DNA from: Candidatus Woesearchaeota archaeon
GTDB taxonomy: Archaea > Nanobdellota > Nanobdellia > Woesearchaeales > GW2011-AR15
NCBI GenBank assembly: GCA_016928835.1
Contig: JAFGJW010000003.1
Coordinates: 52,533 to 116,532, forward strand
DNA: 64,000 bases
Direction: 5' to 3'
The notes under the pieces were generated by a model. It saw nothing but the letters and a program-made list of their open reading frames with translations, did not search any database and was not told the origin of the DNA. This document shows positions 47,610 through 64,000 of the stretch, piece by piece. The translations under genes and the position numbers were made by a program. The number at the start of each line of letters is the position of its first letter. The stretch's first letter is position 1.

Positions 47610-47981
47610 TCATATAATCTTTTTGCATTTTTTGCTTTTACAGGCACATTTCATTTTAATATGAGGTATTGCATCTATCGAATAGTCTGTGGTAATTTCT
47701 TCACCCTTTTTAATGTCCCTTATAGCAATATCACAAAGTTTACCCTCTTTTGTGTTGGGCTCGCAGGAATGGTTCAGATACTTTTCAGGAGACTGGGCAA
47801 AGATGTATTTTCCATTAAAAAACACCAAATATTTCTTATATCTTTTGGGGATTTTTTTAGCTTCCTTTTCAGTTAAAATTATTGAAGTATCCCATTTTAA
47901 AACAATTTCTCCTTTCTTAAGGTCACGATCTGCGAAGACCCCCTTTCCCTGTATTTTTGAGTCCTTGACAATTACAGACAT
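47610..47981 (-). CDS. SET-domain protein (putative lysine methyltransferase)
   Basis: GKGVFADRDLKKGEIV, YLNHSCEPNTKEG, KKGEEITTDYSID, C-terminal CACKSKKCKKII. Confidence 0.88.
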   Translation of the reverse strand: MSVIVKDSKIQGKGVFADRDLKKGEIVLKWDTSIILTEKEAKKIPKRYKKYLVFFNGKYIFAQSPEKYLNHSCEPNTKEGKLCDIAIRDIKKGEEITTDYSIDAIPHIKMKCACKSKKCKKII

Positions 47982-50854: not shown

Positions 50855-51376
50855 TTAAGGTACTCTCCTGAGTTGTTTGACTTGGTAGTCCTCTTCTTTT
50901 CTGACAATCTTGTCTTCTTTAACCTTTACATTGCTGACATCCAGACTCTTGCCGTCAAACATTGCATCTACAAATGTCTTAATCATTGACTGGGTGGTTT
51001 TAAGCGCCTCGTCACTTGTTTTTTTCGGCTCCCATTCAAAATTAATTTTATCTTCTTCTTTTCGCGGGATTACATTAATCAGGAAATGCGCATGCTCCTG
51101 GTTCGCACTCAAACCATTGTTAACAAGTATATTTGTTCCAAGTGCTCCAATAGAATCAAAGATTGCAGTAGATATTGTGTTAGCCAGGGTAAATGAATGC
51201 TCAATTATATCATCTGGAACCTCTTCAAAAATGGGAAAATGCTGCTTAGGTATAACAAGTGTATGGCCTAACACAGCAGGGCTTTCATGCAGTAGCGCTA
51301 TCACTTTCTCATCCTCGTAAACAACAAGGAAATCTTCCTTCTTCTCCATAATCTTGCATATATCGCAGTCTGTCAT
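50855..51376 (-). CDS. HIT family protein
   Basis: CDICKIMEKKEDFLVVYEDEKVIALL, NEHAHFLINVIPRK. Confidence 0.82.
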   Translation of the reverse strand: MTDCDICKIMEKKEDFLVVYEDEKVIALLHESPAVLGHTLVIPKQHFPIFEEVPDDIIEHSFTLANTISTAIFDSIGALGTNILVNNGLSANQEHAHFLINVIPRKEEDKINFEWEPKKTSDEALKTTQSMIKTFVDAMFDGKSLDVSNVKVKEDKIVRKEEDYQVKQLRRVP

Positions 51377-51378
51377 TT

Positions 51379-52119
51379 TTATGTAAAAAGTTTTGAAATC
51401 TTATCGATATCCGGCTGATTCGCTTTGCTATGCTTGTTCTTTTTGTCCTTGTGCCCGGATAATTCCTCAACAACGCTATCCACTTCATCTTCCATGTTTT
51501 GTTCATTTGTCTCTGGTTTAATATCCTCATCTTTTATTTCCTCTACTTTTTCCACTTCCACAATTTTTGGCTCACTTGTTGCTATAGGCTTCTTGACAGC
51601 CGGCTTTTTTCCACCAAACCTTTGAATCAGTTTCTCATGGACAGATACAAGCTCTTCCCTATTGACTTTGTTTTTTGGGATGCTAAACAGCATATCTCCT
51701 CTGTGACGTGGTATAACATGCATCATGAAATGAGGCGCTTTTTGGCCTGCTGCTGCTCCATTTGCAATAAACAATGAAGTGCCCTGCAAGCCCAATGCCT
51801 TAAGCAAAGTGCGCGAAATCTTTTTTGCAGTAACAAATAAATGGCCTAAATCATCTTTTGGAATCTGGGGCATTATTTGATAGTGTTTCTTTGGAAGTAA
51901 AAGGCAGTGTCCCTCGCTTCCTGGATTTATATCTAATATCACCAAGACTTTTTCATCCTCGTATATTTTTTTTGAGGGTATCTCTCCTGCGATAATCTTG
52001 CAGAATATGCAGTTCTGCCTTTGCAGCTCAGCTAGTTGCTCTGGAGAAAGGTTGCTTAAATCCTGTGACATATGCATTTCTAACAAATTCGTGTTTATAA
52101 TAATTTTGATTTTTTTCAA
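51379..52119 (-). CDS. HIT family protein with C-terminal extension
   Basis: CIFCKIIAGEIPSKKIYEDEKVLVILDINPGSEGHCLLLPKKHY, QKAPHFMMHVIPR. Confidence 0.9.
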   Translation of the reverse strand: MKKIKIIINTNLLEMHMSQDLSNLSPEQLAELQRQNCIFCKIIAGEIPSKKIYEDEKVLVILDINPGSEGHCLLLPKKHYQIMPQIPKDDLGHLFVTAKKISRTLLKALGLQGTSLFIANGAAAGQKAPHFMMHVIPRHRGDMLFSIPKNKVNREELVSVHEKLIQRFGGKKPAVKKPIATSEPKIVEVEKVEEIKDEDIKPETNEQNMEDEVDSVVEELSGHKDKKNKHSKANQPDIDKISKLFT

Positions 52120-52222: not shown

Positions 52223-52732
52223 ATGGACAATATTGCTCTTTTAGAAAAAGAAGATAGAGATCTTATCAAGCATCTCTCTGCATATCTCACCAGAAAATAC
52301 AGACTGCCCAGACCACTATTAATTGAGCTCTTTGCTGATGAAAAAAAATTTGTTCTATCTATTCCTCTTTCTCTATTTAGCAAAAAACTGGGAGTGCTGG
52401 AAACACTAGTCAAATATCTGCGCGAAAATATGAATCTAAAATTTGTTGAGATTGCTCAGCTGCTTGATAGAAGCACTAGCACAGTCTTAACAACATACAG
52501 AAAGGCACTGAAAAAATTTCCTTCTCATTTTATTATTACTAACCTAGACAATATGATACCCCTCTCTATCTTCCGAAACAGAAAATACTCCAACCTTGAG
52601 CTCATTGTCTCATATCTCAAAGAAGAACTGGAGATGTCAAACCAACATATTGCTGAAAAGCTTGAACGTGATAATAGGACTATATGGACAGTCTACAGCC
52701 GCTATAAGAAGAAGAAAAATGAAAAAGAGTGA
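52223..52732 (+). CDS. double helix-turn-helix protein, 169 aa
   Basis: LVKYLRENMNLKFVEIAQLLDRSTSTVLTTYRKA and LIVSYLKEELEMSNQHIAEKLERDNRTIWTVYSRYKKK; overlaps the next ORF by 14 nt. Confidence 0.75.
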   Translation: MDNIALLEKEDRDLIKHLSAYLTRKYRLPRPLLIELFADEKKFVLSIPLSLFSKKLGVLETLVKYLRENMNLKFVEIAQLLDRSTSTVLTTYRKALKKFPSHFIITNLDNMIPLSIFRNRKYSNLELIVSYLKEELEMSNQHIAEKLERDNRTIWTVYSRYKKKKNEKE

Positions 52733-55700
52733 ACAGTATAAGAGAAAAGCTGAAGAGATAATGTCTAGAATAGAGAGACTTAAGAATCAGAAGCAAAGGA
52801 TAATTGACTTTGTAAACTCATGGCAGGATAGACTTGACTCAAAGGAGATAAATAAGTTAGAGTTTAACACACTAATATCCGAAAAACTCAAGCATAGAAG
52901 TCTTGCTGAAACTGTCGAGGAGTACAATTCCTACTTACGAAAATATTATACTTTATTGAGCAGATATGAGCAAAAAATTGATGATTGCTACAGACGGCGT
53001 TATGTTTCGCTCAGTTTAATACTTGCTCTCTTTATAGCAGCAGGTATTTTCATCAGACCAATATTAACTGGAAGAGTGGTTGCACCAGAGCAAAATCTCA
53101 TTGCAGAAACAGTAGATTTATATTTCAATGAGTCTACAAGCTATACACACTTGCTCAAGCATAATCCAACTTCTTTAATGGTCTCTGGTGAAATAATTGG
53201 TCAAGGCAGACTAAGAATATATTTAGACGATAAGGTAGTTCTTGATTCAGACAAACTAGATACAGAACAAGGTCTAATGACTATAACCGGCAGAGCAACT
53301 GAGATTGTTGAAGAGAATGGTACTCTGATAGAAACAACCACCTCAACAAGTACAACAAATACACCTGCCAGTGAGACTACCACACTAAGCAGTTCAACAA
53401 CAACCACAGCAAATGAAACAACTTCTACTGTGTTAGAGAATATTACTACAAGCACTTCTACTATATTTGTTACTACAACTACATTGCGAAATATTGCACC
53501 AACAAGCACAAGTACAACTACTTTGCAAAATTTAACTACTGCAGCTTTGGCAAATGAAACAAGTACAACAACAACTGAGCCTAATATTACTACAACATCA
53601 TCTACCACAACTACAATATTTAATGTAACTACAACTTCAACAACAACCAGTACTGAATCTAATGTTACCACAACTACTCAATTAAACGTGATAACAACTT
53701 CCACGACAACCACAACACTGCCTAAGTTTATAGAGTTTGATAATTATTGTCTAGAAACTTGCTTCTTAGCCAATGTCTCAAAAGAGATTACTTTAACAAT
53801 TGAGATTGAGAATGTAACGCTGCACATAGCTGAATTAACATACTCCTTTGTTGATGAAGAAGATAGCAATATTACTATCTATAATATTTCAAATATTCTT
53901 AAGGAAAATCATACCCAAGTTGAGATCAACAAACCTGCATTATGGAACAAAATTGTTAATACTAGTATTGACAATAAAATTAAATTGACTAGTGAAGCCT
54001 ATGATCTATCATCAAGTTCGGCAGCTAAAATCAAAATAAAAGATAAGGAACTAACTGTTGATGAATATAACTTAGAAAAAGCATATAGCAAATTAGTAAG
54101 AGAATTACATAAACTAGAGAAACCGACTAAAAAAGAAGAGCTGGATATTACCTTAGAAAAGATATCTGAGCTTAATACACAAATCTCTTTAATAGAAAAC
54201 AAAGTACAAAAATTAGAGTTTGAAGAGGACATTACATTAACATTTGAAAGTGCTTCTGAAATCGTTAACATTAGCTATATTACAGACGGGCCAAGCGTTG
54301 AAGAGAAAGAAGTCAGTGAATATAAGAAGATAATAACAGTCAGCTCTCCATTACATTATGAGAATGTCTTAGCTTATACAAATATTACAGAGTCAAGGAG
54401 AGAAAGCATAAATGTCTACTGGTTAAAGGATTCTGGAAAAGAATTGTTTAATGATAGGGTTTTATTTATTGATACTAATGAGAATGGTTTGATTGACAAA
54501 ATAGAATGGACTATACCCCATTTATCCAACCAAAGCTTTGAGATTAGCATTAAAATATTAAATGTTCAGAGCTATCCAATGGTTGGGGGCAACTGGACTG
54601 TTCTATTCAATACAACTGGAGAAGCTAATTTAACTATTATTCCGTATGATGACACAACATATACAGAAGTATGGACTGACAATATCAATACAGAAGATGA
54701 TTTGGAATTATTAAAGATAAGTTGTGATGATACTATCTATTTTGATAAGCTGAGTGATTATTATTTAGATGAGGTGTATTTTGTTTTAGCAGATAATTCC
54801 TTAATTGACATTGATTCTGTAAAAGGCAATTCGTATCCAATAAAGGGGGTCACTATACTCAACTATTCTTGTAATCTGACAGGAGAACATACTGTCTTGG
54901 TTAATACAGAAGGCGATCATCATCTAATGTTTTACTTTGGAGAAGAAAATGCTTCTGCTAATAATTATGCTTACTCGCAAAATGAGACAGCATGGGAAGA
55001 ACAAATTCTTACTGGAAGCAGGTATGAAAGAACAACTACAAGTGATATTGGCTTAGTTGGCTATTGGAGCTTTGAAGAAGGCACAGGAACGACAACCTAT
55101 GATAAAACACAGTATGGAAATGATGGTACAATTTCAGGCGCAGAATGGATTGCTGGAAAAAGAGGTAATGCTCTCAACTTCAATGGAAGCGGGGACTATG
55201 TGAAAGCCCAGAGCGATACTTTCAAAAACCAGATTTTTTCAACTGAAGCTTGGGTCAAAACCACCGACGAAGAAGCAGAAGTTGTGAGTTATACCAACTT
55301 AAGCGGATATTACGGATGGACAGTAAGAACAATCACAGGAGGGCGTGTCAGACTTAGTTTAATCTCATCTACAGGAAGCAGCCTAGGTAGCGTGGAATCA
55401 ACAGTTTCGATAAGTGACGGCAGTTGGCATCATATTGCAACAACGGATAGTGGATCAACTTTACGAATGTATATAGATGGAAAAATTTCAAACATATCTA
55501 ATTCAGCATCTAAGGTATGGAATTCTTCAATGATCTTGTACCACGGAGCCTACCGTCCCGAAAGTGCACTAGAAAAAAGATACATGAACGGCACCATAGA
55601 CGAAGTACGCATTTATAACAGGTCATTGTCAGCATCAGAAATCTGGGACCATTACCAAGAACGTTATGGTATTTATCTTAATAAAACACTAAGGCAAAAG

Positions 55701-58700
55701 CCCCATGCATGTGATGATAATGTACTGGCAATGTTTAGGATGGATGAGAATGCATTTGACTCATGTAGTAATGAAACTACAGCACTTGGAGAAGATGATA
55801 CAGCTATACCTACATTTGAACCTGGTAAAGTGGGCTTGGCAGCCAGCTTTGACGGAACTGATGATTGTATTGGGTTCTTACCAGACAATACAATATTTGA
55901 AGCTGGTTTCACTGTTAGGACAGTTGATTTCTGGTTCAAGGCTAATGAGTTAGATGGTAACCAAACGTTATATGAAGAAGGCGGTTCAACTAATGGAATG
56001 GCAATTAGGTTAAATGATGATGTGCTTCAATGGGCAACGCAAGACGCACAGGATATGTTTGTACTAAATACAACTATAGTTAATACAAACAGATGGTATC
56101 ATGTTATGGCTGTGTTTAATTGCAACAATATGACTCTCTACTTGGACGGAGAAATTAAGAATTTTACTACAACCAATTTTACAGGTTGCGAAATTTCAGC
56201 TCATTCGAATGATGGAGGAATAGGCTATTCTAAAAGTCAAGATGCCTTTGACTATACTGGCTCAGGCAACTATTTCAATGGCTCTATAGATGAGTTTAGG
56301 GTTTCAGATAAAGTAAGGAACATTGATGAGATTTATGAGTTTTATAGACTAGGCTATTATACAAACCCAGAAACAGACGCCACTACAAAAGTATCTTGGA
56401 CTCTCAGATGGAATTCCAGCAGCAAAACAAATTATGAAGCACTAGACGGAGATCTAAACTACACTTACCTGGCTAATGACACTGTTCTGGTTGTTTTCCA
56501 GCCTGGGCCGAGTGAAGGGATTGATACATATACGAATAGCGGAAGTCCAACTACATCATACGCTACCTCTGATGTTCTCTGGTTTGGAGCGGGCACTGGA
56601 AAACCAATTCCGTACTACAGGCCGCTGCTTTTCTTTGACCTAGGCATTATTCCAAAGAATTCAGAGATCATTGATGCAAATTTGACTTTATATATACAAG
56701 ATGCAGATGGCACCGCACCAGGAATGGATTGCTACAGGGCAACATCTTCATGGGAGGAAAGCGTCACATGGAATACCCTGCCAAAATATGATTCAAGCGC
56801 TCCAATTGCCACTTTTGCTGGAGACCAAGAGGAGTACACCTCAGAAACAGTTTCTGTAACAGCAACAATAGCAAAGTGGGTTAATGGAACATACACGAAC
56901 TACGGCTTTTACTGCAAAGGAACAGAAACAGAAAACACAAGAGGCAATTTTACGTCATCTGATTACGCCACTGAATACATGCGACCAAAGCTCACAATAT
57001 TGTACAAGCCTACATCCAAAATATATTTACAAACACGTGTCTCAGATGACAATTTAACATGGGGAGTATGGACAGGAAATTATCCAGTGCCACAGATAAA
57101 TGAGAATATTTCCACATTGGAGGCAGATGGAACATTGCTACTACTGCCCTTTGAAGAATACGACCCAGACATTGAAAGCGATTATTACATGGACTATGAA
57201 GGCTATTATGAAGAGACTCCTGAGCATCCTTACTTAGATGACAGAGACGGCTTAATTGGGTACTGGTCTCTAGATGGCAATGGATGGGACTATTCTAAGT
57301 ACAGTAATGATGCCTCTGTTATTAATGCAAGCTCTACTCCAAATGGAAGAATAGGAGGTGCTTATGAGTTTGATGGTGTAGATGATTTCATAAAAATAGA
57401 TGATAGTGATGATTTTGAGCCAGATGGAGAAAACATAAGCATTGAGCTGTGGTTTAAGTTGAATGAAAAATGGAACAGTTCAGTAACTGACTATGTTCAC
57501 CTTATTTATCATTATTATGCAATAGACCCCATATATACGGGCTACCAATTATTTCTCAACACAAATGGTAATCTTACCTTTCTATATGGTGCTGACGGCG
57601 GCAGCATTATATCAAGCCGCTCTTCTTGGGAGCCAGATGTATGGTATCATATTACAGCAATAATAGATGATTCTGCCAACCAAGAGAGATTATATGTTAA
57701 CGGTGTTTTGGATAATAATGGAACAACAGTAAGCAATATCAACTACGTTACTGCTACGGATCTTTATATTGGTAGTACCGGCTCAACAAACTACTTCAAC
57801 GGCACAATAGATGAAGTTGCTATCTATGACAGTGTTTTATCTGATGTAGAGATTAAAGAGCATGCTTCTCTGGCAAGTATAAAAGAGGGAAAGTTCCAGA
57901 GCGCAGCTTACATTAATTCCACATCATTGGTTTATCCAGTAGGTGTTCCTAATAATGAAAATACATTATTGGTTTGCAGGTTTGATGAAGACACTAATCC
58001 TTATGTGTGTGCACAAGGAGAGTATGGTAACAACAAGAGGAATTATACGTTTATAGATTCAACTAATAATAAGGCTTATGAATGGAATACTACTGGGACT
58101 ACATTCACTACGACAAATGCTATTAATGACGCATACTCAACCCTAACATCAGACGACGGCAGCTACCAGTCTATACAAACAGAAGCATCGACTTACTATC
58201 CATACACTAGATTTGATTTCAAGATTGATGAAAAAGAAGATGATATAAATAACATTACTATCAAATGGATTGGTTTTGGTGACTTAGCAGGTGCTGCTGT
58301 GGGTACAGAGGGATTCACAATTTATGTGTATAATTTTACTGGATGGGAACCAAAGGCATCCTCAACTTCTGCGAGTGAACAAACAGTAACCATTAATCTC
58401 AGCTCCAGTGAACTAAATGAATTTATAAACACCACAGGACACCTGTTGGTTGTTGCACGTGGTCCAAGTTTTGGGGTGTGTGGAGGAAGTACTTGCTACG
58501 CAAACATCTCCACAGATTATATTGCCATCGAAGTAAACACAAAGAATGATACTGTTTCTGGGAAGTATGACCAAGGTGTTAGAATAAACAGCAACCATAC
58601 TCAAACGTTAATATATCCAACCAAAAATAATTTCAATAAAGATGCTGGAACAATTGAATTCTGGGTTAAGACTGATTGGTATTCTAATAGTACCGTTGGA

Positions 58701-61700
58701 CCCCATTATCTCTTTGAAGAAGAATCTTCTTATCAAAAAAATGAGATGTATATCTACTTTACTGGTTTGCCTATGGGAGACCCACTTTACTTCATGATGT
58801 ATGACAGTGCAGGACCAAAGTATATAAGAAATAACATAAATAATTCATGGGCACCAGAGGAATGGCATCATATTGCCGTAGTATGGGATTCACAAAATCC
58901 AGTATCTGGAAGTAATTATCTAGAAATGTATATAGATGGCTCAACATCTGGTAACACCTATGACGAGACAACCTCAAGTATGTCAATAACAGACACAGCA
59001 GACACAATGTACCTTGGCTCAGATGCAAGCGGAGCTAATCAAGCCAATGCAACATTCGATGAATTCGCAATATATGATTACGCAAAAACAAGAGAAGAGA
59101 TAATCCAAGATTACCTTGGGAATATAAATGTGAGCAGAGGCACAATTGAGTTCTGGGTTAAGACTGATAATGACTGTGACCAAATGACAGATCCATACTT
59201 CTATGACTTGGAGGCAAGTGATAACCAAAACGAAATTGAAATATACTGGAGTAGTGGCGATGAAGGCTTGTATTTCAATATTTACAATTCGACTGGGGGG
59301 TTAAAAAGTGTCTTCAATGATCCCTTTATGTGTGTGGCAAATAGATGGCATCATATTGCTGCAGTCTGGGATATTAATGCGGCGGTCTCTGGCAGTAATT
59401 ACATGGAACTCTATATTGATGGCTCTAATACAGGAAACACATACTCTGACACGACTTCACCAATCTCACTAACAGCAACAGCTCCTTTAATATATATTGG
59501 CTCTGATTCTAGCAAGGCAAACAACTGCAACTGCACTATTGACGATTTCAAGATAAGCAACTATGCAAAAACATCTTCACAGATATATCCGCAAGGTTAT
59601 GAGCTTGGAAGTGGAGAATCTGTACTAGGCACTGGAAGATACGCTCAATGGAGGGCTATATTTAATACTAGGGACATTGATCCAACAGGAGTATTAAGTG
59701 GAGTCATACTTGAAGGGACAGAAAATGCACCCACATTCTCAACATATGGTATAACTCCAGATCCGGCTTACACAGGAAGTAATCTTTCTTGCTCAGCACT
59801 CATATTAGATGATTATAATGCTTCTATCAATGTTGAGTACAAATGGTATAATCAAACAGGAGGCTCAGGAGATTTCATACTCGGAGGTAATACTACTATC
59901 TCAAATAATTCAAACACTGTTGTTTCAACACTTGGTTCAGGTAATACTACTCCTGGAGAAATATGGAACTGCACACTAAGAGCTTATGACGGGACTGACT
60001 ACTCTGAATATGTATCTGATGCAATAACAATCTCCTCATCGGCTCTGGCATTAAACACTACAAGGCTATACCCTCTTGAAAATCTTTCAATTAATATCAC
60101 CGGCGCTAATAATAATTGTACAATATACATAAAAAGACCTGACAATCATACTGATTCATTCAACGGAACCGTTATTGATGAGATTTGTTATGCTTCAAGT
60201 ATTCCAAGCTACTTAAACGGGACTTATTACATAAATGGGACAGCAGATGGTTCATATACTACTACATTAAGCTTCAATGTTTCAACAAACTGGACTAACA
60301 TTATAATAAATGATTTCCAGTCCAATGTATCACTAATACAAATCTGGGACAGTTTCAATTTAAGCTTAAATCTCAATGATACTCAGAGCAATACTCTTAC
60401 TGGATTCACATCAAATTCTAGTGATCCAAATTTTAACTATGATATACAAGGACCGAGCGAGTCGTGCGGGATTGATATAAAAAGAGAAATTATAAGGATA
60501 GATGAAAACGGCACTGCTACTGCAAGACTAGTAGTAGAGTTCGACTCTGGGGGGTGGGGAGGTGTCGGATGGGAAGAAGAATTCAAAGCAGGCACAAATG
60601 TTACTATTACAATCCTTGGAAAAGACGGCATCTCCCCAATGAATTCTGCAATTGCCATTACTAATGGCACCATTAATGGGGGAGGTTACATAGCCCATGA
60701 ACTTGTAAACAATTCAGGCATCTATACATTTTATGTAAATGTGACTTCAGAAATATTTGATACTATGAGAGGTGCTTATATTGAATTTATCATCCCGCTG
60801 CCAAACAGCCTGTCTGATGTTGTGGCAAGAATTGATTATATCAGGTTTTACTATGACTCTGGAGGAGAGGACAATATATCTATTGCCGATAAAACAATAG
60901 AGGCAGGCGAAACAGGTGATGTGATTTTCAGCCAAAATAGCGAATTTGCAGGCTTGGGCAGGTTCCCAATATACCTTACACTCAACCCAAATTATCATGG
61001 CACAATATGGTATCCGATAAACAGCAGCCTCAGTATTGAGAACCTGAATGGAGAGCTTAGTGAAACTAATGGATATTACTCTAACATCTGGACATGGGAT
61101 GATTATGTCAACACCAATTTCTCAGTAAGAGCTTATGCAGATAGATGGGGTTATCAATCAGATTTAAGTGATAGTGTAGCAATTAACATAAATAACTCAA
61201 ATTACGATAAAGACCTGTTCATTAATGATTTCCAAGCCAATACTACATACTATTATCCTGGAGAAAGCATTAATTTAAGTTTCTATCTGAATAATAGTGA
61301 CAGTATTGCTCAAGCAGACTACTTGACAAATCTCAGTGATTGGAACCCAGATTATCGTGATGTAATTAAGAATGAGGCAACAGCTCTTGAAATTCGAAGA
61401 GAAATTGATAGTATTGCAGAAGACGGAACAGTAACAGCCAAGGTGATTGTAGAGTTCGATGCAGCAGGACAATTGGGAATAGGTAATGAAGCTGAAATAC
61501 TTGCAGGCACAAATGTAACAATCTCCATATTTGGAAAAGATGGTGTCTCACCTGTAAGCTCAGGGATATCACTAAGTACAGCTGAAACTGATCCTGACTA
61601 TGTGTGGACTAACCTTACAAACAGCTCAGGAACATATACTTTTAAAGCAGCAGTCCTGTCAACAATTTCCTCACAAACCGAGCAAGGTTACTTGATTCTA

Positions 61701-64000
61701 ACAATCCCGCCGCATCTCAGTCTTTCGGACACCATCATAAGAATAGATTACATAAAATATGTTTATGATTACGGATCACCAGATTATATATATATCAATG
61801 ATCAATATGTCCAAGATGAAAATCTAAGCGGTGGAGATTATGGTTTTGTAATTTATGATACAGGCGATTTATTCTCAACCAGTATTGGCAGATTCCCTGT
61901 TTACCTTCCACTTAATCCGAATGAAAACGGTACTGTTTATTTTGCGCTGGATAGCAATTTAGGATTTAACTCGGTATCAAGCCAGATTTATTCGGGCTCA
62001 GGTCATTATTCAAATATATTTATATGGGATGATTATGTTCTTGACAATATATCAAGTTTTGCTTATGCTGATAAGTGGCCTTATAATAAAGCACTCTCTG
62101 GTAAGAGAAATTTCACACTTAATGAAAAAAATCTAACTTTATCAGTAAGCAACATAACAGCAAACACAAGCTATTATTTCCCAAATTCAACTATTGAATT
62201 TAATACTACACTAGTTGATAAAAATAACCTTTCCTTATCAAATTTCAATTGGTCAGACTATGGAATGGATATATACAGCAGAAACAACCAGGAGTCAGCA
62301 TTAGAGATAAGAAGAGAAATTGTAAATATATCAAGTGATGGTAGTATTACTGCCAGGTTAATTGTTGAGCTAGATTCAGCAGAAGACACATCCGCATTCA
62401 ATGATAATCCTTACATCAATTCTGGTACTACTGTCAATCTATCGGTATATGGAAGTGATGGGTTCTCACCATTGCCTGGCGATATCTCAATTATTAATAG
62501 GACTAATGACACCAATGCCCGGACTAGCCACACCTTTGCCAATAATACCGGGATATACTCACTAAGCGTTAGCCTTGACACCAATATCGAAGGAGAGGTC
62601 ATTCAGGTCTATCTTGAATTTTCCATACCACCAAATAGAAGCCTAGCTGATATTGTTTTCAGCGTAAACTCTATTTACTTTAAGTATGACAGCGGTGGAA
62701 CTGATTATATTATTGTTGGTGGCACAACTGTTACAGACCCACAGGGAGGGACAGGAATTGCTGAGTACAATACAGGAGACGAATTTGCCACAAGTAACAA
62801 ATTTCCAATATATCTGCCATTAAGCATGCCCAGTTATGGTACCTTGTTCTTAAAGGCATTTAGTGGGAACAATGGAGAGCCAATAAATGGTAACTTAAGC
62901 GAGAGCTATGGAAATTATACACTGTTACATACTTGGGAGACTGAATCTATTGACGATTTCAACGTGAGTTTCTGTGCAAATAAGTGGCAGTATAATAATG
63001 GAAACCTTACTTGTACAGACAATGCAATTGTATTAATTAGAGCAAAGCCGATTATTGATAATGTAAGTGATGGTTATGACTATCCTAACAAGGTTGAAAT
63101 CGGAGAGAATGTTACCTTTGTTATTAATTACACTCTAGATCCTGAGCCAGATGAGCCTGCAAAATTAATTATATGTAATTCTACTAATATAAACTCCTCT
63201 GGCTGCAGTGACAAAGAATTCTGCCAGAGCAGCTATTCAACAGACAGAAAACAGAACTGCAGCTACGAGGTTGAATGGGGCGTATTTGAGGAGGAAAATG
63301 TGTCCTACTGGGTAAAGATATGCACCGACTCTGGCGCATGCTCCAATCTCAGCAATGAGTACAATTTCACTGTTAACCTAACCTCTGAGACTCCAAGGAT
63401 ATTTTCAAATGAGACAATACCTTCAAAAGTCTATTATACAGGTGCACATGGCACTACCTTTGTAATAGAGGCTAATGTCAGTGACAATAATTTGCTCTCT
63501 GTGAATTTCACTTTAACTAATCCGTCAAATACAAATGTAATAGATAATGTGAATGCATCTTCTTATCACGAAGATCTGTTCAATTCCTCTTCTTACACCA
63601 TTGACGAATATGGACAATGGAATTATACAATCACTGCATGGGATGCTGATGCAAACAGTGAATCTGATTACGGCAACATAAAATTCCTGCAGATTACAGA
63701 AACATTAAGTCCGTCAACTGCCATAACTGGCCAAAGCGTAAATATTTACGGCCATATCAATGACAGTAGTTGGAATGATGTGATAAACACTTCAGTATAT
63801 ATACACCAAGATGGATCTTTGATGAATGTAACAGGTGGTTGGAACTGTGGCTCAAGTTGGTGGGACTGCGATTGGACATATAAAAAACAAATTAATATTA
63901 GCCTTGGAGTAGAATCTAATCTAAATAACACTATTACTCTTGTGAATTTCTCAACAATTGATGAAATTAGCGCTGGCAAGATAAAAACTAACTGTGGTGA
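52719..64000 (+). CDS. giant surface protein, at least 3760 aa, truncated by window end; N-terminal coiled coil, one TM, Thr-rich linker, several LamG/ConA-like domains, DNRLRE-like domain, tandem repeat domains
   Basis: Same frame confirmed at 55113, 57261, 59148, 61383 and 63840; LamG-like patterns (GLVGYWSFEEGTGTTTYDKTQYGNDGTISGAEW..., WHHIAAVWD...LYIDGS). Absent from the ORF track because no stop occurs before the window end. Confidence 0.9.
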   Translation, partial: MKKSEQYKRKAEEIMSRIERLKNQKQRIIDFVNSWQDRLDSKEINKLEFNTLISEKLKHRSLAETVEEYNSYLRKYYTLLSRYEQKIDDCYRRRYVSLSLILALFIAAGIFIRPILTGRVVAPEQNLIAETVDLYFNESTSYTHLLKHNPTSLMVSGEIIGQGRLRIYLDDKVVLDSDKLDTEQGLMTITGRATEIVEENGTLIETTTSTSTTNTPASETTTLSSSTTTTANETTSTVLENITTSTSTIFVTTTTLRNIAPTSTSTTTLQNLTTAALANETSTTTTEPNITTTSSTTTTIFNVTTTSTTTSTESNVTTTTQLNVITTSTTTTTLPKFIEFDNYCLETCFLANVSKEITLTIEIENVTLHIAELTYSFVDEEDSNITIYNISNILKENHTQVEINKPALWNKIVNTSIDNKIKLTSEAYDLSSSSAAKIKIKDKELTVDEYNLEKAYSKLVRELHKLEKPTKKEELDITLEKISELNTQISLIENKVQKLEFEEDITLTFESASEIVNISYITDGPSVEEKEVSEYKKIITVSSPLHYENVLAYTNITESRRESINVYWLKDSGKELFNDRVLFIDTNENGLIDKIEWTIPHLSNQSFEISIKILNVQSYPMVGGNWTVLFNTTGEANLTIIPYDDTTYTEVWTDNINTEDDLELLKISCDDTIYFDKLSDYYLDEVYFVLADNSLIDIDSVKGNSYPIKGVTILNYSCNLTGEHTVLVNTEGDHHLMFYFGEENASANNYAYSQNETAWEEQILTGSRYERTTTSDIGLVGYWSFEEGTGTTTYDKTQYGNDGTISGAEWIAGKRGNALNFNGSGDYVKAQSDTFKNQIFSTEAWVKTTDEEAEVVSYTNLSGYYGWTVRTITGGRVRLSLISSTGSSLGSVESTVSISDGSWHHIATTDSGSTLRMYIDGKISNISNSASKVWNSSMILYHGAYRPESALEKRYMNGTIDEVRIYNRSLSASEIWDHYQERYGIYLNKTLRQKPHACDDNVLAMFRMDENAFDSCSNETTALGEDDTAIPTFEPGKVGLAASFDGTDDCIGFLPDNTIFEAGFTVRTVDFWFKANELDGNQTLYEEGGSTNGMAIRLNDDVLQWATQDAQDMFVLNTTIVNTNRWYHVMAVFNCNNMTLYLDGEIKNFTTTNFTGCEISAHSNDGGIGYSKSQDAFDYTGSGNYFNGSIDEFRVSDKVRNIDEIYEFYRLGYYTNPETDATTKVSWTLRWNSSSKTNYEALDGDLNYTYLANDTVLVVFQPGPSEGIDTYTNSGSPTTSYATSDVLWFGAGTGKPIPYYRPLLFFDLGIIPKNSEIIDANLTLYIQDADGTAPGMDCYRATSSWEESVTWNTLPKYDSSAPIATFAGDQEEYTSETVSVTATIAKWVNGTYTNYGFYCKGTETENTRGNFTSSDYATEYMRPKLTILYKPTSKIYLQTRVSDDNLTWGVWTGNYPVPQINENISTLEADGTLLLLPFEEYDPDIESDYYMDYEGYYEETPEHPYLDDRDGLIGYWSLDGNGWDYSKYSNDASVINASSTPNGRIGGAYEFDGVDDFIKIDDSDDFEPDGENISIELWFKLNEKWNSSVTDYVHLIYHYYAIDPIYTGYQLFLNTNGNLTFLYGADGGSIISSRSSWEPDVWYHITAIIDDSANQERLYVNGVLDNNGTTVSNINYVTATDLYIGSTGSTNYFNGTIDEVAIYDSVLSDVEIKEHASLASIKEGKFQSAAYINSTSLVYPVGVPNNENTLLVCRFDEDTNPYVCAQGEYGNNKRNYTFIDSTNNKAYEWNTTGTTFTTTNAINDAYSTLTSDDGSYQSIQTEASTYYPYTRFDFKIDEKEDDINNITIKWIGFGDLAGAAVGTEGFTIYVYNFTGWEPKASSTSASEQTVTINLSSSELNEFINTTGHLLVVARGPSFGVCGGSTCYANISTDYIAIEVNTKNDTVSGKYDQGVRINSNHTQTLIYPTKNNFNKDAGTIEFWVKTDWYSNSTVGPHYLFEEESSYQKNEMYIYFTGLPMGDPLYFMMYDSAGPKYIRNNINNSWAPEEWHHIAVVWDSQNPVSGSNYLEMYIDGSTSGNTYDETTSSMSITDTADTMYLGSDASGANQANATFDEFAIYDYAKTREEIIQDYLGNINVSRGTIEFWVKTDNDCDQMTDPYFYDLEASDNQNEIEIYWSSGDEGLYFNIYNSTGGLKSVFNDPFMCVANRWHHIAAVWDINAAVSGSNYMELYIDGSNTGNTYSDTTSPISLTATAPLIYIGSDSSKANNCNCTIDDFKISNYAKTSSQIYPQGYELGSGESVLGTGRYAQWRAIFNTRDIDPTGVLSGVILEGTENAPTFSTYGITPDPAYTGSNLSCSALILDDYNASINVEYKWYNQTGGSGDFILGGNTTISNNSNTVVSTLGSGNTTPGEIWNCTLRAYDGTDYSEYVSDAITISSSALALNTTRLYPLENLSINITGANNNCTIYIKRPDNHTDSFNGTVIDEICYASSIPSYLNGTYYINGTADGSYTTTLSFNVSTNWTNIIINDFQSNVSLIQIWDSFNLSLNLNDTQSNTLTGFTSNSSDPNFNYDIQGPSESCGIDIKREIIRIDENGTATARLVVEFDSGGWGGVGWEEEFKAGTNVTITILGKDGISPMNSAIAITNGTINGGGYIAHELVNNSGIYTFYVNVTSEIFDTMRGAYIEFIIPLPNSLSDVVARIDYIRFYYDSGGEDNISIADKTIEAGETGDVIFSQNSEFAGLGRFPIYLTLNPNYHGTIWYPINSSLSIENLNGELSETNGYYSNIWTWDDYVNTNFSVRAYADRWGYQSDLSDSVAININNSNYDKDLFINDFQANTTYYYPGESINLSFYLNNSDSIAQADYLTNLSDWNPDYRDVIKNEATALEIRREIDSIAEDGTVTAKVIVEFDAAGQLGIGNEAEILAGTNVTISIFGKDGVSPVSSGISLSTAETDPDYVWTNLTNSSGTYTFKAAVLSTISSQTEQGYLILTIPPHLSLSDTIIRIDYIKYVYDYGSPDYIYINDQYVQDENLSGGDYGFVIYDTGDLFSTSIGRFPVYLPLNPNENGTVYFALDSNLGFNSVSSQIYSGSGHYSNIFIWDDYVLDNISSFAYADKWPYNKALSGKRNFTLNEKNLTLSVSNITANTSYYFPNSTIEFNTTLVDKNNLSLSNFNWSDYGMDIYSRNNQESALEIRREIVNISSDGSITARLIVELDSAEDTSAFNDNPYINSGTTVNLSVYGSDGFSPLPGDISIINRTNDTNARTSHTFANNTGIYSLSVSLDTNIEGEVIQVYLEFSIPPNRSLADIVFSVNSIYFKYDSGGTDYIIVGGTTVTDPQGGTGIAEYNTGDEFATSNKFPIYLPLSMPSYGTLFLKAFSGNNGEPINGNLSESYGNYTLLHTWETESIDDFNVSFCANKWQYNNGNLTCTDNAIVLIRAKPIIDNVSDGYDYPNKVEIGENVTFVINYTLDPEPDEPAKLIICNSTNINSSGCSDKEFCQSSYSTDRKQNCSYEVEWGVFEEENVSYWVKICTDSGACSNLSNEYNFTVNLTSETPRIFSNETIPSKVYYTGAHGTTFVIEANVSDNNLLSVNFTLTNPSNTNVIDNVNASSYHEDLFNSSSYTIDEYGQWNYTITAWDADANSESDYGNIKFLQITETLSPSTAITGQSVNIYGHINDSSWNDVINTSVYIHQDGSLMNVTGGWNCGSSWWDCDWTYKKQINISLGVESNLNNTITLVNFSTIDEISAGKIKTNCG
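60298..63050 (+). repeat. three tandem about 306-aa protein repeats within the giant ORF
   Basis: Units begin near 60298, 61217 and 62134, each with I(K/R)REI..I..(D/E)(N/D)G(T/S).TA(R/K)(L/V)(I/V)VE(F/L)D...AGTNVTI. Confidence 0.75.

Follow-up and report, generated by a model that had tools for sequence, protein, structure and literature searches.

A giant N-anchored surface protein in a woesearchaeal genome and its candidate display cluster, with remote similarity to bacterial WxL systems

The means by which DPANN archaea attach to their partners have long been in question, and isolated giant proteins make up most of the candidates. The stretch of DNA analysed here (the window, 64,000 nt of woesearchaeal sequence) ends in a gene for such a giant, which raises the questions of how so large a chain might be held at the cell surface, what it might bind and whether it belongs with other genes. 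The gene runs on the plus strand, as do its domains and its upstream neighbour described below, from an ATG at 52719 to 64000, and is open at the contig end, giving at least 3,760 codons. Reading of the window confirmed the one continuous frame claimed by an earlier note on this DNA, with no stop found. The chance of such a stop-free frame at the local base composition is ~10^-122; over the same gene, 242 and 442 stops fall in the other two frames. Its absence from the default list of open reading frames is explained only by the frame running off the contig.

N-terminal anchor module and ectodomain

The first ~640 residues make up an anchor module that no Pfam family matches; it was modelled with AlphaFold2 from an alignment of 20 sequences (mean pLDDT 70). 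In the model, a hairpin runs into the transmembrane (TM) helix (residues 2–111), followed by a small beta domain (126–176), a disordered linker (184–334) and a beta/helical-hairpin/beta unit (337–611). The N-terminal part (aa 1–94, 52719..53000) had been described as a cytoplasmic-looking coiled coil; the model predicts a cytoplasmic helical hairpin (pLDDT 87–97 in the hairpin, about 90–97 over aa 1–94), and a 72-aa profile of it matched 32 proteins, essentially all at the N-terminus ahead of a TM. Hydropathy and the model agree on the single N-terminal TM that had also been proposed (aa 95–111, 53001..53051), which is preceded by RRR and whose basic flanks predict an N-in topology. N-glycosylation sequons number 149, vs 67 expected from composition, with none before residue 112, a distribution to be expected if the N-terminus is cytoplasmic and the ectodomain glycosylated. 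Beyond the membrane lie a conserved extracellular beta domain (aa 126–176, 53094..53246; alignment and model), a Thr/Ser-rich linker (aa 196–337, 53304..53729) of 142 residues (~130 aa first estimated) with 63 Thr and 18 Ser, disordered by composition and a pLDDT <50, and a conserved beta/helical-hairpin/beta module (aa 337–640, 53727..54638) with no Pfam family and no match to a solved fold. A fold search of the N-terminal module against PDB returned nothing significant; efflux adaptors were rejected as fold relatives at a TM-score of only about 0.1.

This anchor module is common to many proteins that differ in their middle parts. Its most conserved portion (alignment A2) was found in 81 of 236 genomes of the phylum, the frames that carry the module reach 10,180 aa, and the named A2 matches are mostly records of Woesearchaeota, Nanoarchaeota, Pacearchaeota and other DPANN archaea, with a few under other names. 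The cytoplasmic hairpin domain can also occur in tandem, with three copies in L160:7301-10761 and two in L187:1198-10248. Within the same genome, a 667-aa protein (L021:9566-11569, contig C18) has the same hairpin domain, and a 5,523-aa frame (G000:C7:87312 region) weakly matches the anchor-module alignment. A complete paralogue of 4,469 aa on contig C19 shares the N-terminal module, 39% identical to that of the giant over the first ~310 aa, and has a LamG domain near its end and a different, Cys-rich middle; its start agrees with the ATG assigned here.

The ectodomain carries five Laminin_G_3 stretches, scoring 66–90 bits vs a Pfam cut-off of 27.6, at aa 822–975 (55182..55643, E 7e-25), aa 1068–1205 (55920..56333, E 5e-18), aa 1552–1713 (57372..57857, E 2e-25), aa 1966–2128 (58614..59102, E 1e-19) and aa 2158–2289 (59190..59585, E 3e-18). 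Several LamG/ConA-like domains had been noticed near these positions, although the one placed at 57.96–59.1 kb really spans 58.61–59.10 kb. Between the second and third lies a CBM96/DNRLRE/disaggregatase-repeat domain (aa 1268–1427, 56520..56999), above the curated cut-offs of both NF033679 (91 bits vs 34, E 8e-26) and PF24517 (62 vs 26, E 8e-17), where a DNRLRE-like domain had been read at 56.5–57.0 kb. Further along, direct alignment delimits three tandem repeats, R1 (304 aa, 60273..61184), R2 (310 aa, 61185..62114) and R3 (311 aa, 62115..63047), with a mutual protein identity of 31–41%; their description as novel holds in that repeats of this type occur in this genome only among 224 genomes of the phylum. 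The frame closes, at 63701..64000, with the first half of what we take to be a Big-like domain, into which the start of a presumably DUF2341-like one is inserted before the contig end cuts the frame; no significant Pfam match to Big or DUF2341 was obtained over these positions, and the same order is seen in a relative (L231).

C-terminal domain, partner protein and double-HTH gene

Seeding a profile with the C18 and C19 ends revealed a ~130-aa domain that lies 2–9 residues from the C-terminus in nearly all large proteins matched, and that is also the main domain of ~205–250-aa proteins with an N-terminal TM. The same genome contains two large proteins and two small ones of this kind, a layout seen in the paralogue and in relatives and not directly in the truncated copy of the window; the complete clusters of relatives also contain a small protein with the same C-terminal domain. 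The domain is modelled as an Ig-like sandwich (pLDDT 91.8). A PDB sequence search with it gave no match, FimG/PapE-type (donor-strand) pilus subunits were rejected as homologues (top PDB E 0.011, TM-score ~0.5, non-significant), and the best viral fold match (E 0.005) was not taken as homology.

The next gene downstream commonly codes for a partner protein of ~400 aa with a C-terminal TM and a basic tail; by non-redundant counts, this is so for 12 of the 14 large proteins with the C-terminal domain and for 10 of the 14 small ones. Ten of 20 partner members matched WxLIP_HBD at E up to 0.1; the partner encoded beside the C19 paralogue reached 29.3 bits vs a cut-off of 28.9, the sole scanned member to exceed it, and among PDB sequences the partner matched EfmWxLIP1 best (172 positions, E 0.008). 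The first WxLIP domain listed by Pfam had no match in the partner. At the level of sequence, these results point to a remote similarity to the WxLIP proteins of Gram-positive bacteria, weak but repeated. Partner matches were obtained in 186 of 224 genomes, ~100 of them with E below 1e-30, and the weaker ones may be other Ig-like proteins. As the conserved C-terminal domain of relatives is paired with a C-terminally anchored partner, the giant is probably held at the surface by both of its ends; the N-terminal (type II) anchoring put forward by the earlier note stands as regards the TM, but is probably not the whole story.

On the other side of the giant, a 169-aa tandem (double) HTH protein is encoded at 52223..52732 (Sigma70_r4_2 E 6e-6; family alignment A1), with its TGA stop overlapping the ATG of the giant by 14 nt. 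Both halves resemble sigma region 4; a search for sigma-70 identity gave region-4-type matches only, the NCBIfam sigma models scoring well short of their cut-offs, and a PDB sequence search gave an E of 0.014 at best. The double HTH stands directly upstream of 30 of 74 anchor-module loci, so that only ~40% have it next door, and within 3 kb of five more. Viewed from the HTH side, in a sample of 34 matches, one per genome and 33 of them assessable, reading of the loci placed an N-anchored or signal-bearing surface protein after the HTH in 30, the exceptions being L192, L201 and L212; an automatic rule returned 25 of 33, vs 37 of 310 control genes (odds ratio 23, Fisher p 1e-14). Some of the followers belong to another family, of ~250 aa, indicating that the HTH marks surface-protein genes in general. 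That family is secreted ('..GTFTTLVL..QNPRWKAYVGN..'), its start is likewise overlapped by a gene of the double-HTH family at G000:C2:164-541 (L005:32-544) and in L096-L099, and in several such loci a signal-peptidase-I-like protein and a ~600-aa protein come next, possibly a second surface operon type. Also in the window, two adjoining HIT-domain genes (50855-52119, minus strand) are divergent from the HTH/giant operon, and a small stand-alone SET-domain protein, here in an archaeal genome, is encoded at 47610-47981 (PF00856, E 1.5e-17).

Proposed display role, its alternatives and known surface systems

On balance, we favour the reading of the giant as an N-anchored surface display or adhesion protein, within a WxL-cluster-like archaeal system of double HTH, giant and WxLIP-like partner. 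The C-terminal domain would dock on the partner, perhaps completing an unfinished beta-sandwich by analogy with what has been proposed for WxL and WxLIP, and the docked chain, held at both ends, would project its LamG and CBM96 domains outwards, where they could bind either extracellular polysaccharide or the glycans on another cell's surface. The double-HTH protein would control transcription of its own operon. The giant's middle may turn over rapidly, reflecting partner recognition, in line with the excess of non-synonymous SNPs reported for N-anchored external proteins of Nanoarchaeota (PMC6142677), and cell–cell or host attachment by the giant is plausible.

The same domains could instead belong to an ordinary modular glycan-binding or polysaccharide-handling protein that captures polymers without attaching to a host, and whose neighbours are generic. 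In favour of this, LamG_3 and CBM96/DNRLRE are carbohydrate-binding types, and the giant gene contains five of the nine LamG matches in the whole genome. However, no catalytic domain was found in the giant, and the anchor, HTH and partner are common to giants with unlike middles, the Cys-rich paralogue among them, which argues that the cluster is about display and not about one substrate. We regard polymer capture as possible but unlikely.

A different role for the regulator was suggested by four loci (L164:8582-13489, L186:441-6089, L187:1198-10248 and L188:1195-6204) in which an N-anchored surface protein continues in frame, at its C-terminus, into a fused double HTH. Together with the overlap of the HTH and giant genes, these fusions would suit a double-HTH protein that serves the surface protein as an arm in the cytosol, a regulator linked to the membrane through which contact is signalled to the DNA. 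Yet the fused HTH is preceded by a hydrophobic stretch of only about 11–16 residues and a Lys/Arg cluster, making a cytosolic location uncertain, and adjacency of the HTH is independent of the cytoplasmic hairpin: it also precedes surface proteins without one, so contact between hairpin and HTH is not required. Such an arm seems improbable. L188 has a separate HTH gene directly upstream, besides its fused HTH. An apparent fusion in G001:C57 was rejected as an artefact of bases read as N, and those in G171, G110 and G102 were set aside, with no HTH match in a frame passing the N-run filter.

Among the closest known systems are the WxL clusters of Lactobacillales and Bacillales, which comprise a small WxL protein, a large protein with a C-terminal WxL and a WxLIP made up of two Ig-like domains plus a TM (DUF916-DUF3324-TM), a strand of which is predicted to complete the WxL sandwich (PMC10599100); csc clusters are counted with them here (PMC1534035). 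The archaeal set is similar in its small protein, hardly more than the shared domain, in the large protein bearing that domain C-terminally, and perhaps in the conserved, putatively Ig-like partner encoded next to them, which has a C-terminal TM and is remotely WxLIP-like in sequence. It differs in that large and small proteins have an N-terminal TM, in giants of thousands of residues and in the overlapping double-HTH gene. None of 25 C-terminal-domain members has two W-x-L motifs, and the domain gave no WxL Pfam match; with the motif tested and absent, we do not file the archaeal set as a WxL cluster. Our literature search found nothing linking WxL with DPANN, or HTH with woesearchaeal surface proteins.

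Also comparable are the SPEARE giants of Nanohaloarchaeota, which are reported to combine an N-terminal Sec signal, beta-propellers, a VirB4/TraG-like ATPase and a coiled coil at the far end, and are proposed to contact hosts (PMC10266531). As here, these are membrane-anchored, single-chain giant surface proteins of a DPANN lineage, but the topology of our giant is reversed, with an N-in TM, and neither Sec signal nor propellers nor a VirB4/TraG-like ATPase domain nor a far-end coiled coil was found in the 3,760 aa seen (Pfam, model), leaving a SPEARE-like secretion conduit, as proposed for the nanohaloarchaeal giants, very improbable. The LamG-operon surface proteins of the nanohaloarchaea SVXNc/BNXNv have up to five LamG domains, with attachment proposed (PMC10266531); our giant has five, whereas no HTH/partner cluster or shared anchor module has been described for theirs. 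Nanoarchaeota also have proteins termed 'hypothetical external' with a single TM close to the N-terminus, which fall in the same topology class and are reported to be rich in non-synonymous SNPs, yet are not described as giants or as members of a conserved cluster (PMC6142677).

The missing end and the meaning of the cluster

The last base of the window is the last base of contig C17 (116,532 nt), in a genome of 1.53 Mb in 20 contigs, so that it is the assembly, not the choice of window, that truncates the gene. No overlap of ≥25 nt was found between this end and any other contig end. The giant carries the sole anchor module of its genome without an end, and the end of contig C18 holds the sole C-terminal-domain fragment without a front. 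In L231, a Big-like first half is followed by a DUF2341-like part, LamG and the second Big-like half, with one frame break between the first half and the DUF2341-like part; this order fits the C17 end, then a gap, then the C18 start. The C18 fragment is likely the continuation of the giant, for a total of ~4,400 aa. Neither this probable C-terminal half on another contig nor the paralogue or the overlapping HTH gene had figured in the earlier note.

Repeat collapse, which that note had raised as a possible flaw, was checked at the DNA level and is not indicated, as the gene contains no near-identical long DNA repeat (best ~72% over 65 nt). That the long frame is an assembly artefact, by frameshift or collapse, is scarcely credible: the gene does stop at a contig end inside a repeated domain type, but its domains are coherent all along the frame, its repeats are strongly diverged in both protein and DNA, and a complete paralogue of similar size exists in the same genome. 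Contigs C4, C7, C8, C10, C11, C17, C18 and C20 all end inside long surface-type frames, so that in assemblies of this kind giant genes are probably cut short and their number underestimated.

A giant LamG protein is not in itself the novelty here; the new element is the cluster, together with its remote link to WxLIP. The double HTH, anchor module, C-terminal domain and WxLIP-like partner form a recognisable set with parts that profile searches can pick out in many genomes, and this set yields testable claims about the interacting pieces, the anchored end and the regulator. The cluster is probably how symbiont-like cells display sticky domains. A wider version, a phylum-wide archaeal display system distantly related to WxL, with giants that are clamped at both ends and controlled by a dedicated double HTH, in some cases carried on the same chain, such that the state of the surface protein may be relayed directly to DNA, is doubtful. 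To our knowledge, peptidoglycan is not expected in such archaea. If the WxLIP link is true, a surface-clamp principle so far known from Gram-positive bacteria alone would have an archaeal counterpart that works without peptidoglycan.
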